Assembly (NCBI RefSeq): GCF_018325905.1
Contig: NZ_AP021901.1
Coordinates: 5,084,001 to 5,148,000, forward strand
Reading direction: 5' to 3'
Length of the DNA: 64,000 nt
DNA from: Pseudomonas sp. St316
GTDB taxonomy: Bacteria; Pseudomonadota; Gammaproteobacteria; Pseudomonadales; Pseudomonadaceae
The notes below the pieces were generated by a model that worked only from the letters and a program-made list of their open reading frames with translations, made no database searches and had not been told where the DNA came from. This document shows positions 6,452 through 64,000 of this stretch, piece after piece (the first letter of the stretch is position 1; each line of letters starts with the position of its first letter). A program made the translations under genes and the position numbers.

Positions 6452-6541
6452 CTCATCGCGAGCAAGCTCGCTCCCACAGGGGACCGCATTCCAGTGTGGA
6501 AGCGAGCTTGTGTGGGAGCGAGCTTGCTCGCGATAGCGGTG
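6452..6541. repeat. REP doublet (GTGGGAGC family), outward arrangement
   Basis: Here the order is CATCGCGAGCAAGCTCGC first and TGTGGGAGCGAGCTTGCTCG second, with a third partial arm at 6494. The right edge touches the stop codon (6542-6544) of the convergent peptidase-like gene. Confidence 0.9.
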
Positions 6542-9022: not shown

Positions 9023-9111
9023 TGTGGGAGCGAGCTTGCTCGCGATGGCGGCGTGTCAGTCACATTGATATCTACTGACGCACCGCTATCGCGAGCAAGC
9101 TCGCCCCCACA
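9023..9111. repeat. REPIN (GTGGGAGC family), 89 bp
   Basis: Left arm TGTGGGAGCGAGCTTGCTCG, right arm ending GCGAGCAAGCTCGCCCCCACA. An additional partial arm (CCTTGCTCGCGATGGCGGTC) follows at 9153. It separates two convergent genes. Confidence 0.9.
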
Positions 9112-35360: not shown

Positions 35361-35433
35361 CTATCGCGAGCAAGCTCGCTCCCACACTGGATTTGTGGTG
35401 TTAATAAATCCAGTGTGGGAGCGAGCTTGCTCC
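35361..35433. repeat. REP doublet (GTGGGAGC family), outward arrangement
   Basis: CTATCGCGAGCAAGCTCGC first, then TGTGGGAGCGAGCTTGCTCC, separated by AT-rich sequence. It separates bcp from the convergent perM-like gene. Confidence 0.9.
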
Positions 35434-35467
35434 GGGCGGCGTTCCGACGATGAGGCCATCAATCCCG

Positions 35468-53813: not shown

Positions 53814-53890
53814 CATCGCGAGCAAGCTCGCTCCCACATGGGATCTGTGATGCACCATAGAACCCTGTGGGAGCGAGCTTGCTCGCGATG
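53814..53890. repeat. REP doublet (GTGGGAGC family), outward arrangement
   Basis: CATCGCGAGCAAGCTCGC then TGTGGGAGCGAGCTTGCTCG, between the AbrB-type gene and the convergent ung. Confidence 0.9.
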
Positions 53891-58798: not shown

Positions 58799-59583
58799 GT
58801 TTCATTACGGTGAACAATGTCTGGCAACAGTATGCCGATCAGGTGGTACTGGAGCGTTTGAACCTGAGGGTCGCCGAGGGTGAGTTCTGCACCCTGGTGG
58901 GCGCCTCGGGTTGCGGCAAGTCGACCTTCCTGCGGTTGCTGCTGGGCCAGGAGCGTGCCAGTCGCGGACAGATTCTCCTGGACGGCGAACCCTTGGCCGG
59001 CGAGCCGGATGCCAGCCGGGGCGTGGTGTTCCAGCGTTATTCGGTGTTCCCGCACCTGAGCGTGCTGGACAACGTGGCCCTGGGCCTGGAACTGCCGCGC
59101 TCGCCGCTGCTGGGCCGACTGTTTGGCAGCGCCAAGCGCCAGGCCCGCGAAGAAGCCGCGCAACTGCTGGACAAGGTCGGCCTGGGCCACGCGCTGGATA
59201 AATACCCGGCGCAACTGTCCGGGGGCATGCAACAGCGGCTGGCGATCGCCCAGGCACTGATCATGAAGCCGCGTGTCCTGCTGCTGGACGAGCCCTTCGG
59301 TGCCCTCGACCCGGGCATTCGCAAAGACATGCACGCCCTGTTGCTGGAGCTGTGGCGCGAAACCCGGCTGACGGTGTTCATGGTCACCCATGACCTGTCC
59401 GAAGGTTTCAGCCTCGGCACGCGCCTGCTGGTGTTCGACAAGGTCCGCGTCGATCCCCACGCCCCCGGCGCCTATGGCGCACGCATTACCTACGACATTC
59501 CATTGAACAGCGACCGCCGCACCGCCCGTGCCGCCGTCGACGCCCTGCCCGCCGAACTGGCCGGCACGTTGCGTATCGCTTGA
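58795..59583 (+). CDS. ABC transporter ATP-binding protein
   Basis: A 262-residue ATPase. Walker A GASGCGKST (36-44), signature LSGGMQQR (141-148), Walker B VLLLDEPFGALD (161-172), and the switch His in VFMVTHDLSEGF. It overlaps the permease gene by 4 nt. Its frame is open far upstream inside the permease gene, but the ATG at 58795 is the family start. Confidence 0.93.
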   Translation: MSFITVNNVWQQYADQVVLERLNLRVAEGEFCTLVGASGCGKSTFLRLLLGQERASRGQILLDGEPLAGEPDASRGVVFQRYSVFPHLSVLDNVALGLELPRSPLLGRLFGSAKRQAREEAAQLLDKVGLGHALDKYPAQLSGGMQQRLAIAQALIMKPRVLLLDEPFGALDPGIRKDMHALLLELWRETRLTVFMVTHDLSEGFSLGTRLLVFDKVRVDPHAPGAYGARITYDIPLNSDRRTARAAVDALPAELAGTLRIA

Positions 59584-59596
59584 AAGGAGTTTTTCC

Positions 59597-60322
59597 ATGA
59601 CCGACTCGACCCCATTGTTTGCACCTTTCGCCGAAGAACTGCTGCCCGGCGGCGGCCACCGTTCCTTCGTGCTCAAGCGCGGCCAACTGCTGCGCCTGAC
59701 CGACCTGCGCGGCGGGGCAAACGTCAGCTTGACGCTGCTCAATGCCAACGAAAAAACCGAACGCCTGAACCTGCCCGACAGCCTCAAATGCCAACACACC
59801 GCCAAGCTCACCGCAGGCCATTGCCTCTACTCCGACATGGGCCGGGTGCTGGCGGCCATCACCGCCGATACCTGCGGCTGGAGCGACAGCCTAGGCGGTG
59901 TGCTCTGCGCTGAGGAAGTCGCTGAAAAGTACGGTCAGGGCCGCTATCAGGAACTGCGCAACGGGTTCTTTCGCAACGGTACCGACAACCTGCTGGTGGA
60001 GCTGGGCAAATGGGGGCTGGGCCTGTCCGACCTGCTGATGACCCTCAACCTGTTCAGCCGGGTCGATGTCGATGAGCGCGGAGGCTTTCACTTCGTTGAA
60101 GGCAACTCCCAGGCCGGCGACTACATCGAGCTGTACGCACCGATGGACACCCTGGTGGTGCTGACCGCGCTGCAACACCCGATGGACCCGAACCCGCACT
60201 ACGCCCCGCAACCGCTCAAGCTCAGTTGGATGAACGCCGACGCCAGCGTCGCCGAGCACTGCCGCCATTCGCGCCCGGAAAACCAGCGCGGCTTCATCAA
60301 CACCGACCGCCTGTTCGCCTGA
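59597..60322 (+). CDS. Carboxyguanidine deiminase subunit (urea carboxylase-associated protein 1, DUF1989)
   Basis: A 241-residue DUF1989 protein. The metal-binding [20 protein letters not shown] (DTCG) motif and the second region [20 protein letters not shown] mark the UAAP1 type. In characterised operons UAAP1 and UAAP2 form the deiminase that processes carboxyguanidine to allophanate. Good ribosome site AAAGGAG with 7-nt spacing. Assignment to guanidine rather than urea use relies on the riboswitch. Confidence 0.88.
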
Positions 60323-60333
60323 GGATCGCTGCC

Positions 60334-60975
60334 ATGTCACTCGCCATCGCCACCGCACACAAGCAACCCGATACTGCCGTCTACCGCGCCACGATTCCCG
60401 CCGGAGAACCCTGGCTGGTGGAGGTCAAGGCCGGCCAGACCCTGCGCATCCTCGACCTGGAAGGCAACCAGGCGGTCGATACGCTGTTCTACAGCCTGGC
60501 CAATCCCAAGGAACGCTACGACGTGCAGCGCACCCTGCGCCGGCAGAACAGCGTTTACCTGAGCACCGGCAGCGTGCTGTATTCCAACCTCGGCCACCCG
60601 ATGCTGACCATTGTCGAAGACACTTGCGGGCGCCACGACACCCTCGGCGGCGCCTGCGCCCAGGAAAGCAACACCGTGCGCTATGCCCTGGAAAAACGCT
60701 ACATGCACAGCTGTCGCGACAACTACCTGCGGGCCTGCGCCCACGACGGTCGGCTGGGCAAGGGCGACCTTGGGCCGAACATCAACTTCTTCATGAACGT
60801 GCCGGTCACCGCCGATGGCGGCCTGACCTTCGAAGACGGGATCTCGGCACCCGGGAAATACGTCGACCTGCGGGCCGAGATGGACGTGATCGTGTTGATC
60901 TCCAACTGCCCGCAACTGAACAACCCATGCAACGCCTACAACCCCACGCCAGCGGAGCTCTTGATATGGAACTGA
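60334..60975 (+). CDS. Carboxyguanidine deiminase subunit (urea carboxylase-associated protein 2, DUF1989)
   Basis: A 213-residue DUF1989 protein paralogous to its neighbour. The [18 protein letters not shown] metal motif and a Cys-rich region ([20 protein letters not shown]) are present; C-terminus [20 protein letters not shown] fits UAAP2. It starts 12 nt after UAAP1. A REPIN fills the gap to the carboxylase gene. Confidence 0.88.
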
Positions 60976-61072: not shown

Positions 61073-61161
61073 TGTGGGAGCGAGCTTGCTCGCGATAGCG
61101 GTCTGTCAGTTACATCGCGGCTGGATGTACCGCCGCTATCGCGAGCAAGCTCGCTCCCACA
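61073..61161. repeat. REPIN (GTGGGAGC family), 89 bp, upstream of the carboxylase
   Basis: Arms TGTGGGAGCGAGCTTGCTCG and its complement. In reverse orientation it matches the intragenic copy at 63570-63658 with about five differences. It lies in the 299-bp gap between UAAP2 and the carboxylase. Confidence 0.92.
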
Positions 61162-61274: not shown

Positions 61275-64000
61275 ATGTTCGAAAAAATCCTGATCGCCAA
61301 CCGTGGCGCCATCGCCTGCCGCATCCTGCGGACCTTGCGTGAACTGAAGGTCGAAGGTGTGGCGGTGTATGCCCAGGCCGACGCCGCCAGCTTGCATATT
61401 CTCCAGGCCGATGAAGCCCACTGCCTGGGCGAAGGCGCAGCGGCCGGTACTTACCTGGCGGTGGACAAGCTTTTGGCGATTGCCAAAAGCAGTGGCGCGA
61501 CCGCGATCCATCCCGGCTACGGTTTTCTCTCGGAAAACGCCGCCTTCGCCGAAGCCTGCGAAGCGGCAAATATCGCTTTCATCGGCCCGACGCCCGAGCA
61601 ACTGCGAGTGTTCGGCCTCAAGCACACCGCCCGCGACCTGGCGCGCCGGCAGGGTGTGCCACTGCTCGAAGGTACCGAACTGCTCGACAGCCTCGACGCC
61701 GCGCTATTGGCCGGCACACAGCTCGGCTATCCGGTGATGCTCAAAAGTACCGCGGGCGGTGGTGGTATCGGCATGCGAGTGTGTCGCAGCGCCGCCGACC
61801 TGAGCGAATCCTTCGAAGCCGTCAAGCGCCTGGGCCAGAACAACTTCAGCGACGCCGGGGTGTTCATCGAAAAGTACATCGAACGCGCGCGGCATCTGGA
61901 AGTGCAGGTATTCGGCGATGGCCTGGGCCAGGTGATCGCCCTGGGCGTGCGCGACTGCTCGGTGCAACGGCGCAACCAGAAAGTCCTCGAGGAGACCCCG
62001 GCGCCGAACCTGCCCGTGGGTATGGCCGACGAACTCTGCGCAGCGGCGATCCAACTGGCCCAGGCCGTGAACTACCGCAGCGCCGGCACCGTGGAGTTCG
62101 TGTTCGACAGCGACGCAGGGCTCTTCTATTTCCTGGAAGTGAACACCCGCCTGCAAGTGGAGCACGGCGTCACCGAGCAGGTGTGGGGCGTAGACCTGGT
62201 GCGCTGGATGGTGCAACTGGCAGCCGGTGATTTGCCGCCACTGAGCGAGCTGAGCCAAGGTTTGAAAGCCGAGGGGCATGCGATCCAGGCGCGCTTGTAT
62301 GCCGAGGATCCAGGTCGGGATTTCCAGCCAAGCCCGGGGCTTTTGACCGCCGTGAAATTTCCCCCAGCCGACGGCAAGGCATTGCGCATCGACACCTGGG
62401 TCGAGGCCGGTTGTCAGATCCCGCCCTACTTCGATCCGATGATCGCCAAGGTCATTGGCTGGGCGCCAACCCGCGAGCAGGCGCGCCTGGGCTTGCATCA
62501 AGCGCTGGATGAAAGCCTGCTGTACGGCGTCGAGACCAACCGCCAATACCTGCAACAGATTCTCCTCGACACACCGTTTTCCAGCGGCCGGCCCTGGACC
62601 CGCTGCCTGGAAGCGTTGGTCTATCGCGCCAACACCGTTGAAGTGCTCAGCCCCGGTACCCAGACCAGCGTCCAGGACTATCCCGGCCGCCTCGGCTATT
62701 GGGCGGTGGGTGTGCCGCCGTCTGGGCCGATGGACAGTCGCTCGCTGCGCCTGGGCAATCGCCTGCTCGGCAACGAAGAAGGTGCAGCGGCGTTGGAAAT
62801 CACCATGAACGGGCCGCTGCTGCGTTTCAACTGCGCTGCCCGGGTGGCAGTGACCGGTGCGGTGATTGCCCTCACGCTCGACGGCGAAGCGGTGCCGATG
62901 AACACCCCATTGTCAATTGTTGCCGGCGCCACCCTCGCGATCGGCCACATCTCTGGCGCAGGGGCGCGCAGCTACCTGTGCTTGCAGGGCGGCGTGCAAG
63001 TGCCGGATTACCTGGGCAGTAAAAGCACCTTCACCCTCGGCCAGTTCGGCGGCCATGGCGGACGGGCGTTGTGTACCGGCGACGTGTTGCACCTGGCGCC
63101 GCTGGATGAGCACACGACGCTGCCGCCAACGAGCGCGCCGGACCTGGAACTGCCAAGCGTGCGGCAGATCCGCGTGATCTACGGTCCCCACGGCGCACCC
63201 GAATATTTCACCGAGCGCTACATCCAGACGTTCTTCGACACGGCCTGGGAAGTGCACTTCAACTCCAGCCGCACCGGTGTCCGCCTGATCGGGCCGAAAC
63301 CCGAATGGGTGCGTGCCGACGGCGGCGAGGCCGGGCTGCACCCTTCCAACATCCACGACAATCCCTATGCCATCGGTGCCGTGGACTTTACCGGCGACAT
63401 GCCCGTCATCCTCGGCCCCGACGGCCCGAGCCTGGGCGGCTTCGTCTGCCCGGTGACGGTGATCGAAGCGGACCTGTGGCAGTTGGGGCAACTCAAGGCG
63501 GGGGACAAGGTGCGGTTCGTGCCGGTGGACCTGACGACCGCCCGCTCGCTGGCCCTGCAATGGCCCCCCTGTGGGAGCGAGCTTGCTCGCGATAGCGGCG
63601 GCACATCCAACCTTGATGAAACTGACAGACCGCTATCGCGAGCAAGCTCGCTCCCACAGGGGATTGCGTCGCCTGTGGTGTTGGATATCGGCCAGGACGA
63701 TACCCGCCTGGTCGCTCGCCTGGCAGGCGACACCCACCTGCTGCTGGAAATCGGTGCCCCCGAACTGGACCTGGTGCTGCGCTTTCGCGCCCATGCCTTG
63801 ATGCAGGCGTTGGAACACAAACACCTGCCCGGCGTGATCGACCTGACGCCGGGCATTCGCTCGCTGCAAGTGCACTACCAACCCGAGCAAATGCCCCTGG
63901 CCGATCTGCTGGCGCTCATCGTCGGTGAATGGGACGCGGTGTGCGCCGCGCAGGACCTGCAAGTGCCGTCGCGCATCGTCCACCTGCCACTGTCCTGGGA
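61275..64000 (+). CDS. Urea/guanidine carboxylase, 5' part, with an in-frame REPIN
   Basis: About 908 residues are visible before the right edge (family length is about 1200). Biotin carboxylase domain: residues 1 to about 450 (start MFEKILIANRGAIACRILR; ATP loop MLKSTAGGGGIGM; FLEVNTRLQVEHGVTEQVWG). Carboxyltransferase AHS2/KipA-like domain from about 455 (LSPGTQTSVQDYPGRLGYWA), then AHS1/KipI-like from about 800 (VVLDIGQDDTRLVARLAG). The biotin carrier part is off the edge. Residues about 766-795 are encoded by a REPIN between the two halves. The riboswitch and DUF1989 genes suggest guanidine as substrate. No stop codon is seen to the edge. Confidence 0.9.
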   Translation, partial: MFEKILIANRGAIACRILRTLRELKVEGVAVYAQADAASLHILQADEAHCLGEGAAAGTYLAVDKLLAIAKSSGATAIHPGYGFLSENAAFAEACEAANIAFIGPTPEQLRVFGLKHTARDLARRQGVPLLEGTELLDSLDAALLAGTQLGYPVMLKSTAGGGGIGMRVCRSAADLSESFEAVKRLGQNNFSDAGVFIEKYIERARHLEVQVFGDGLGQVIALGVRDCSVQRRNQKVLEETPAPNLPVGMADELCAAAIQLAQAVNYRSAGTVEFVFDSDAGLFYFLEVNTRLQVEHGVTEQVWGVDLVRWMVQLAAGDLPPLSELSQGLKAEGHAIQARLYAEDPGRDFQPSPGLLTAVKFPPADGKALRIDTWVEAGCQIPPYFDPMIAKVIGWAPTREQARLGLHQALDESLLYGVETNRQYLQQILLDTPFSSGRPWTRCLEALVYRANTVEVLSPGTQTSVQDYPGRLGYWAVGVPPSGPMDSRSLRLGNRLLGNEEGAAALEITMNGPLLRFNCAARVAVTGAVIALTLDGEAVPMNTPLSIVAGATLAIGHISGAGARSYLCLQGGVQVPDYLGSKSTFTLGQFGGHGGRALCTGDVLHLAPLDEHTTLPPTSAPDLELPSVRQIRVIYGPHGAPEYFTERYIQTFFDTAWEVHFNSSRTGVRLIGPKPEWVRADGGEAGLHPSNIHDNPYAIGAVDFTGDMPVILGPDGPSLGGFVCPVTVIEADLWQLGQLKAGDKVRFVPVDLTTARSLALQWPPCGSELARDSGGTSNLDETDRPLSRASSLPQGIASPVVLDIGQDDTRLVARLAGDTHLLLEIGAPELDLVLRFRAHALMQALEHKHLPGVIDLTPGIRSLQVHYQPEQMPLADLLALIVGEWDAVCAAQDLQVPSRIVHLPLSW
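63570..63658. repeat. REPIN inside the carboxylase coding sequence, 89 bp
   Basis: Complete element with TGTGGGAGCGAGCTTGCTCG and complementary right arm ending CTCGCTCCCACA. It is read in frame (starting at codon 766) as CGSELARDSG...PLSRASSLPQ without a stop. It falls between the AHS2-like and AHS1-like domains, where an inserted loop is likely tolerated. Confidence 0.95.

Follow-up and report, generated by a model that had tools for sequence, protein, structure and literature searches.

In this study, we have analysed a window of 64,000 nucleotides (positions 5084001-5148000) of the one-contig, 6.78-Mb genome of Pseudomonas sp. St316, in which a REPIN, a hairpin element made of two inverted repetitive extragenic palindromic (REP) sequences, lies in frame within a urea carboxylase gene, at a protein linker where such elements recur throughout the genus. 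The gene is on the forward strand and occupies 61275-64000, from its ATG to the end of the window, beyond which the open frame continues to a last sense codon ending at 64913, followed by the stop; its 1213 codons are uninterrupted across the REPIN. A profile search gave 1907.9 bits for the NCBIfam equivalog TIGR02712 (urea carboxylase, cut-off 1304) and recovered the full domain order of the enzyme: the biotin carboxylase part (residues 1-446, 61275-62612; Pfam PF00289, PF02786 and PF02785), the KipA-like carboxyltransferase half CT_A_B (residues 478-750, 62706-63524; PF02626), the KipI-like half CT_C_D (residues 815-1034, 63717-64000 and on outside the window; PF02682) and the biotin carrier. 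Between the two halves, the anchors used here delimit a hypervariable linker, residues 761-805 (63555-63689), which holds the REPIN.

With its CCCC...GGGG ends, the REPIN spans 63566-63662, as found by an inverted-repeat search and by RNA folding. Two 33-nt arms (63566-63598 and 63630-63662), 100% complementary to each other, enclose a 31-nt loop (63599-63629) whose orientation is opposite to that of close relatives and, folded as RNA, the element reaches -77.7 kcal/mol (z -14), a value equalled by none of 200 shuffles. The core, GTGGGAGC...GCTCCCAC, covers 63571-63657, that is 87 nt or 29 codons, and with one more base on each side it encodes residues 766-795 (CGSELARDSGGTSNLDETDRPLSRASSLPQ). 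A first-pass annotation, made from the letters alone, had placed a REPIN in this carboxylase gene and had the frame running open through it between the KipA-like and KipI-like halves, and both statements hold. The same annotation saw a puzzle in a length of 89 nt, which would have called for changes in the flanking bases; the puzzle disappears, as the figure depends on where the ends are drawn and the core is 87 nt both here and in 14 of the 29 copies of the genome that were measured, the in-gene one included (in another 14 the length exceeds a multiple of three by one, and in the last by two). It is the change of the whole linker, rather than the length of the element, that must be a multiple of three, and this is the case; altered flanks are not needed. 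The reading phase of the gene is free of stops in 23 of the 29 measured cores. Moreover, both ends of the element read TGT GGG..., so that an element of suitable length yields CGSELARD...SRASSLPQ in either orientation.

The in-gene stretch has 217 blastn matches in the St316 genome (the first pass of this search scored 40 of 898 candidates), many sites being counted on both strands because the element is palindromic, and an 18-mer of its arm has 1103 exact copies. The genome also contains three Y1_Tnp transposase genes, and on either side of one of them, L223, the same REPs form inverted pairs; together with the dispersed copies, this identifies the in-gene element as a REPIN of the dominant type of the genome. 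Its best genomic match (94%, inverted) is a REPIN at 61074-61160, just upstream of the urea carboxylase gene, and a REPIN match is also found just upstream of urea carboxylase in the genomes of loci L033, L034, L036 and L037. The element itself fits a REPIN and only its position, inside a gene, departs from the extragenic location of the class. Among the other copies, the 29 closest (L002-L030, chosen by closeness and not a random sample) were tested for flanking open frames of 50 codons and inspected by eye, and no convincing gene runs across any of them; the window contains six REP pairs, and only the in-gene pair is crossed by an open frame of more than 170 codons. An intragenic REPIN therefore looks rare in this genome. 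Four candidates for a REPIN in another real gene, L008, with an open frame of 681 codons, and L014, L020 and L029, with shorter ones, were rejected by eye, their translations looking antisense or not those of genes. Four further REP pairs of the window, none of them crossed by a frame of more than 132 codons, lie at 6456-6533, 9024-9110, 35364-35436 and 53816-53888, the second facing inward like the in-gene element and the other three outward.

Recurrence at the linker across Pseudomonas

Of 199 genomes of the genus that were searched, 109 contributed a single urea carboxylase locus each; 13 second-copy rows of 53-54% identity were left out, and loci that duplicate records already counted were not added (for example, L141, which is the same record as L034). 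From a second set of 80 loci, nine lacking one half were left out, as was L195, which contains a run of N. A distant second urea-carboxylase-like gene, with the same 53-54% identity, occurs in several Pseudomonas genomes (e.g., G028:C3, G003:C1 and G012:C1). Between fixed anchors, the linkers of the 109 loci range from 48 to 942 nt and from 17 to 315 residues. REP-type motifs of several families, matched with at most four mismatches (three for one family), are found in 85 of the 109 linkers, which amount to 17.4 kb, as against six matches in the 381 kb of the gene remainder. All linkers except one are stop-free and a multiple of three in length (108/109), an outcome with a probability of 2e-50 if the loci were independent, and the parts of the St316 gene that flank the linker show ratios of nonsynonymous to synonymous substitution rates (dN/dS) of 0.056-0.094 against six close relatives (11 of the 12 comparisons computed). 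The sole frame-breaking linker, that of L085 (G176:C1:1473072-1476697), is 2 mod 3 and contains a stop, leaving two open frames of 818 and 471 codons; it may be a pseudogene, a split enzyme or an error of sequencing. The first-pass annotation had proposed to check among orthologues whether the segment is unique to the strain, and had named its conservation in many distant ones as a reason to give up its view of the insert. The segment is not a peculiarity of St316, as the site is occupied in 85 of the 109 orthologues; what these share is the site, and not one fixed sequence.

The REP families seen at the linker comprise GTGGGAGC types, GTGGCGAGGG, GTAGCCCGGATG and CCCTCTCCC...GGGAGAGGG. Exact copies of the GTAGCCCGGATG repeat number 51-124 in the five genomes with this family at the linker, and 0-232 in the 23 others searched. 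The case for the CCCTCTCCC type as a repeat dispersed in its hosts is weaker, its marker having 22, 6, 1 and 0 exact copies in the four carriers and up to 47 in other genomes. No REP motif was found in any of the 25 parsed loci from records naming organisms other than Pseudomonas or Stutzerimonas. In five loci (L074, L081, L085, L162 and L185), the GTGGGAGC REP is read in another frame (VWEPGLLAMQATRS and similar; VWEPGLLAM in L074 and L081), which indicates that more than one REP reading frame is accepted at the linker. Extra in-frame bases are present around GGTGCGACGATTCGAC within one arm of the REPIN, the left one in L040 and the right one in L041 and L047. Apparent extra inserts in the biotin carboxylase part of L142, L146 and L206 were discarded, the main match merely beginning later than the reported one.

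The history of these linkers was followed on a tree of the 109 genes and three outgroups, from which the linker itself was excluded. The minimum number of changes on this tree is 54 for 16 linker types, 20 for coarse families and nine for the presence or absence of a REP. Sister species may carry unrelated families, as in the case of L099 (GTAGCCCGGATG) and L121 (GTGGGAGGGG), or of L119 (GTAGCCCGGATG) and L129 (CCCTCTCCC). The REP-less linkers of the fluorescens-group loci L102, L110, L115, L127 and L130 resemble the remnants of in-frame deletions, those of L127 and L130 retaining both GATCAA/TTGATC ends; no usable case of a simple empty site with a target duplication was found.

Loop flips, covarying arms and tandem units

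The 77- and 89-nt classes of elements are both found with the loop in two orientations, with at least three switches of orientation on the tree among 13 loci of the first class and five among 14 of the second. In the case of L053 and L063, the flanks and arms are nearly the same, and the loops are 93% identical when one of them is reversed and 38% when compared directly; among the 77-nt elements, identity reaches 97% inverted as against 28% direct. The window element, once reversed, codes for CGSELARDSGLSVSSRLDVPPLSRASSLP, which agrees in 29 of 29 residues with proteins P0012 (P. beijingensis) and P0039 (Pseudomonas sp. Tri1), while the best agreement of the unreversed element among the proteins compared is 19 of 29, this comparison being made at the protein level. 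An inverted spacer between preserved arms and flanks, as would be expected from polymerase template switching, is seen as DNA in L053 and L063 and as peptide between the window element and P0012 and P0039.

A 15-mer of the 77-nt loop occurs once in each of seven out of 40 genomes. Six of these occurrences are at the linker, divided equally between the forward and the inverted orientation, and one is elsewhere (G062); the reversed pattern, taken as a control, has matches in two of the 40. In seven genomes, with 40 candidates scored in each, the other full-length matches of the whole 77-nt element of L035 do not exceed 82% identity, except for its orthologue in L038 (97%). With the loop sequence local to the linker and no closer full-length donor found, the flip of the 77-nt element is most simply explained as having happened in place.

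Arm similarity was measured in 50 elements in which both arms could be read. The two arms of an element match at 92% of positions, compared with 81% (maximum 84%) when the right arms are dealt among species, and 22 of the 50 pairs are perfect, compared with three (maximum nine) in the dealt sets; the arms are therefore homogenized within elements, as template switching would have it.

A further kind of change is the gain or loss of tandem units. The arrays found within the gene proceed in steps of 108 nt (L086, eight units), 72 nt (L158), 72, 72 and 99 nt (L083), 111 nt (L152), and 108 and 192 nt (L082), all of them multiples of three. An array elsewhere in the St316 genome (16879-18107) has steps of about 135-139 nt, which, as the in-gene arrays are from other species, is only a hint. 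The P. syringae group was examined through the best 120 of 8000 scored proteins, picked by their similarity to the long-array locus L086. Among these 120, the linkers measure 135-508 residues and the remainder is 1161 residues long in 117, and 77 proteins stand on a single ladder of REPIN units with rungs of 36 residues. In 12 listed pairs, the two proteins are identical over 1140 compared residues, and ten of these pairs differ by multiples of 36 residues, such as P0201 and P0224 (linkers of 207 and 135) or P0172 and P0212 (279 and 207).

These length differences, and the in-gene element itself, could in principle reflect an assembly error or a pseudogene, since short-read assemblies can mis-size tandem units and L085 is indeed frameshifted in its linker. 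We regard this as extremely improbable: the window genome is a single 6.78-Mb contig, the in-frame pattern recurs over 109 genomes, the flanking dN/dS is 0.06-0.09, and the ladder is also found on chromosome-sized contigs (e.g., those of P0122, P0128 and P0156), so that collapsed assembly is not the whole story.

Origin of the elements and their effect on the enzyme

All together, these results allow us to propose, as a likely account, that the joint between the two carboxyltransferase halves is a very tolerant linker that takes in-frame REP insertions and evolves in place by template switching, replacement, and gain or loss of units, with the frame as the main filter. The spacer between CT_A_B and CT_C_D would be a permissive site on which REPs and REPINs, as non-autonomous mobile palindromes, would have landed repeatedly in Pseudomonas. 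Their common reading, TGT GGG AGC ... CTC CCA CAG, is usually stop-free and gives the same arm peptide either way, so that an element would survive whenever the total change of the linker is a multiple of three. Once in place, template switching between the near-perfect arms would keep these alike and flip the loop, tandem units would be gained or lost, and elements would be replaced or partly deleted, enzyme-level selection acting mainly on the frame. Of all this, the in-frame element, its recurrence, the different REP families sharing one position, the frame filter, the flipped loops, the covarying arms and the ladder of units are observed. By inference, the flips would be the product of template switching, rather than of a recombinase, of the REP-associated tyrosine transposase (RAYT) or of replacement by another copy, and the effect on the enzyme would be near-neutral.

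Several points weigh against this account. There is no REP motif in 24 of the 109 linkers, 11 of which belong to one clade, so nothing requires a REP there. The list of motifs was completed after the linkers had been seen, which gives importance to a palindrome test independent of the list, and this test (the best inverted repeat against 30 shuffles per linker) was passed by only 72 of the 109. Within the syringae group, the length differences of two of the 12 pairs, 30 and 6 residues, are not whole units. Some role of the hairpin in the mRNA or in the protein may exist. Finally, the arm type of the linker is the commonest of its genome in 15 of the 20 genomes in which both arms are exact members of one of four types (permutation p 5e-5, uncorrected for ancestry), a match that pure template switching does not predict and to which replacement by genomic copies may contribute. 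With a looser typing of the arms, the match falls to 21 of 36; independent, ancestry-corrected pairs scored on the commonest type always go in the same direction and are too few for significance, and when scored by share they include contrary pairs for the W type.

The last point is the core of a different explanation, according to which a new type always arrives by RAYT-driven insertion, or by gene conversion from the REPIN pool of the genome, without any flipping in place. Besides the 15 of 20 genomes, it would account for the window's close group, L032-L038, in which all seven loci match the genome type on at least one exact arm, for the unrelated families of sister species, for the three Y1_Tnp genes with L223 between REPs, and for two traits of the window element, namely CCCC/GGGG ends that are covered by many genomic matches (query 26-28 onward) and a best match in the REPIN just upstream. 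It is at odds with the 77-nt class, whose loop 15-mer is never present more than once in any one of the 40 genomes, whose whole element lacks another full-length match above 82% in the seven genomes, and which appears in both orientations with P and W arms (and with G arms in L145, outside the 40) between near-same flanks. A recent replacement by a near-identical genomic copy was sought for two elements and not found, the nearest other full-length copies among the 40 candidates scored per genome being 89% and 82% identical. Turnover by mobile copies without flipping is a serious possibility that we place somewhat short of an even chance. As template switching alone explains neither the match with the genome type nor the change of family, mobile copies must contribute as well, by insertion or by replacement, and it is most likely that the two processes are combined.

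As for the protein, a 95%-identical relative (L141) was modeled with AlphaFold2 over residues 457-1086. The REPIN-coded residues 312-336 of the model have a predicted local distance difference test score (pLDDT) below 50 and connect the long helix that ends one half to the strand that opens the other, so that the linker is predicted to be disordered; to be set with the points against our account, this is the model of a relative, of moderate quality (mean pLDDT 72), and other loops score low too. The model matches K. lactis urea carboxylase (3va7 and 5i8i), and also separate chains of about 300 and 200 residues, in E. coli YbgJK (5dud) and Msmeg0435-0436 (3mml), which we take to be the two carboxyltransferase halves, TTHA0988 (3ore, about 490 residues) being a single chain; the joint thus seems to fall where some other bacteria have two separate proteins. 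Within the element, the proportions of nonsynonymous (pN) and synonymous (pS) differences are 0.30-0.34 and 0.24-0.35 in four relatives of equal length, a comparison made without undoing the flip, which likewise tells against too firm a reading.

The first-pass annotation had left open whether the REPIN is domesticated as a protein linker or tolerated by the enzyme. Tolerance is well supported by the 108 of 109 linkers in frame, the flanking dN/dS of about 0.06-0.09, the similar pN and pS inside the element and the predicted disorder. Domestication is not shown, as neither sequence nor length (17-315 residues, and up to 508) nor presence (24 of 109 lacking a motif) is conserved. Selection for a function of the CGSELARD...SRASSLPQ segment itself within the enzyme might be suggested by its presence in many species and its strictly kept frame; such a function is nevertheless very unlikely, given that pN is close to pS, that flips change the middle of the peptide wholesale, that lengths vary to this extent, and that the REP is translated in a different frame in the VWEPGLLAM group (L074 and L081). 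A function at the level of the mRNA, where a stable stem at the domain border would slow ribosomes and thereby help the first half to fold, or would protect the message, would be in keeping with the fold of -77.7 kcal/mol, with arms that are paired across species and with a site exactly between two domains. We consider it unlikely, in view of the 24 of 109 orthologues without a REP motif and the 25 of 25 parsed loci from records naming other organisms that showed none, and because paired arms are equally expected from template switching. The linker could even be an in-frame contingency site derived from selfish DNA, at which reversible loop flips and the gain or loss of whole units, much faster than point mutation, adjust how the two carboxyltransferase halves are coupled, or how quickly they are translated at a strong mRNA hairpin, to the benefit of the cell, an idea to which we give a small chance.

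Few repeats are commoner in bacterial genomes than REP elements, but how these change where they stand is difficult to follow, since intergenic copies drift with neither frame nor anchor. The present case is larger than first thought, a recurrent genus-wide site rather than the accident of one strain: one orthologous, frame-filtered position in about 100 species keeps a record of how elements are inserted, flipped, corrected in their arms and deleted and of how units are gained, which makes it possible to time and test the process. A further lesson is that a conserved metabolic enzyme accepts a joint of 17 to about 500 residues, the long ones being mostly palindrome-coded. The case also carries a warning for annotation, in that residues of the CGSELARD...SRASSLPQ type in Pseudomonas proteins are mobile DNA and not domains.

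With regard to the neighbourhood of the gene, an allophanate hydrolase frame follows it directly, and UAAP1 and UAAP2 genes with ABC transporter parts lie upstream (window 59528-60975). Operons of this UAAP1/UAAP2 type presumably often serve guanidine rather than urea. The enzyme is called urea carboxylase here on the strength of its profile match, and its substrate may be urea or guanidine.

Relation to known systems

In bacterial intragenic invertons, a coding stretch between inverted repeats is found in both orientations; the flips described here differ in that they are known from comparison between relatives, and not from within one population, and in that no dedicated recombinase came to light, though no search was aimed at one. 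In our literature search, which left most subscription papers outside, no title or opening of an abstract reported REPs in urea carboxylase or loop flips of REPINs within genes. Intragenic REPs and template switching are already in print, and our searches brought up none that describes the recurrent linker site, the flips at it or its ladder of units.

The sources compared below were covered in part. REPs of the GTAG/GTGG type, single or as dimers, have been described inside open reading frames of known proteins, where they code for 20-30 residues, with flexible linkers and loops mentioned as tolerant sites and with a REP at about the same place in recB of two Xanthomonas species (PMC3733652). 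The main text of that paper does not mention urea, amidolyase or carboxylase, while its supplement, which was outside our search, may list the gene; genus-wide recurrence, flips and a unit ladder, present here, are not in the text covered. The same source describes the Rickettsia palindromic elements, short palindromes in frame within genes for likely functional proteins. The St316 element is likewise an in-frame palindrome in a gene whose function we infer from dN/dS; the Rickettsia elements are CGTC-type repeats in many genes, whereas here there is one site in one gene and the REPs are of the GTAG/GTGG type (PMC3733652).

In the parts covered of the work on REPINs and RAYT (PMC3116915, PMC8049555; further background in PMC3390384), the elements are, as here, inverted REP pairs in hundreds of copies with the RAYT flanked by the same REPs. 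They are described as extragenic, in contrast to the intragenic copy of St316: the three commonest 16-mers of strain SBW25 have 1,067 occurrences, only 14 of which overlap genes (PMC3116915, PMC8049555). Long perfect inverted repeats within protein-coding genes are also known from Nematomorpha (PMC6649704); these are mitochondrial and, in the text covered, have no tie to a dispersed bacterial repeat family, unlike those of the linker. A parallel in mechanism is provided by yeast genes, in which polymerase template switching between inverted repeats leads, reversibly, to homogenization of the arms and inversion of the spacer (PMC8604942). The same signature is found here inside coding DNA, with a difference of scale and setting: the inversions reported for yeast concern 2-5 bp and up to two residues (PMC8604942), whereas those at the urea carboxylase linker involve about 30 nt and 10-14 residues of a bacterial mobile element.

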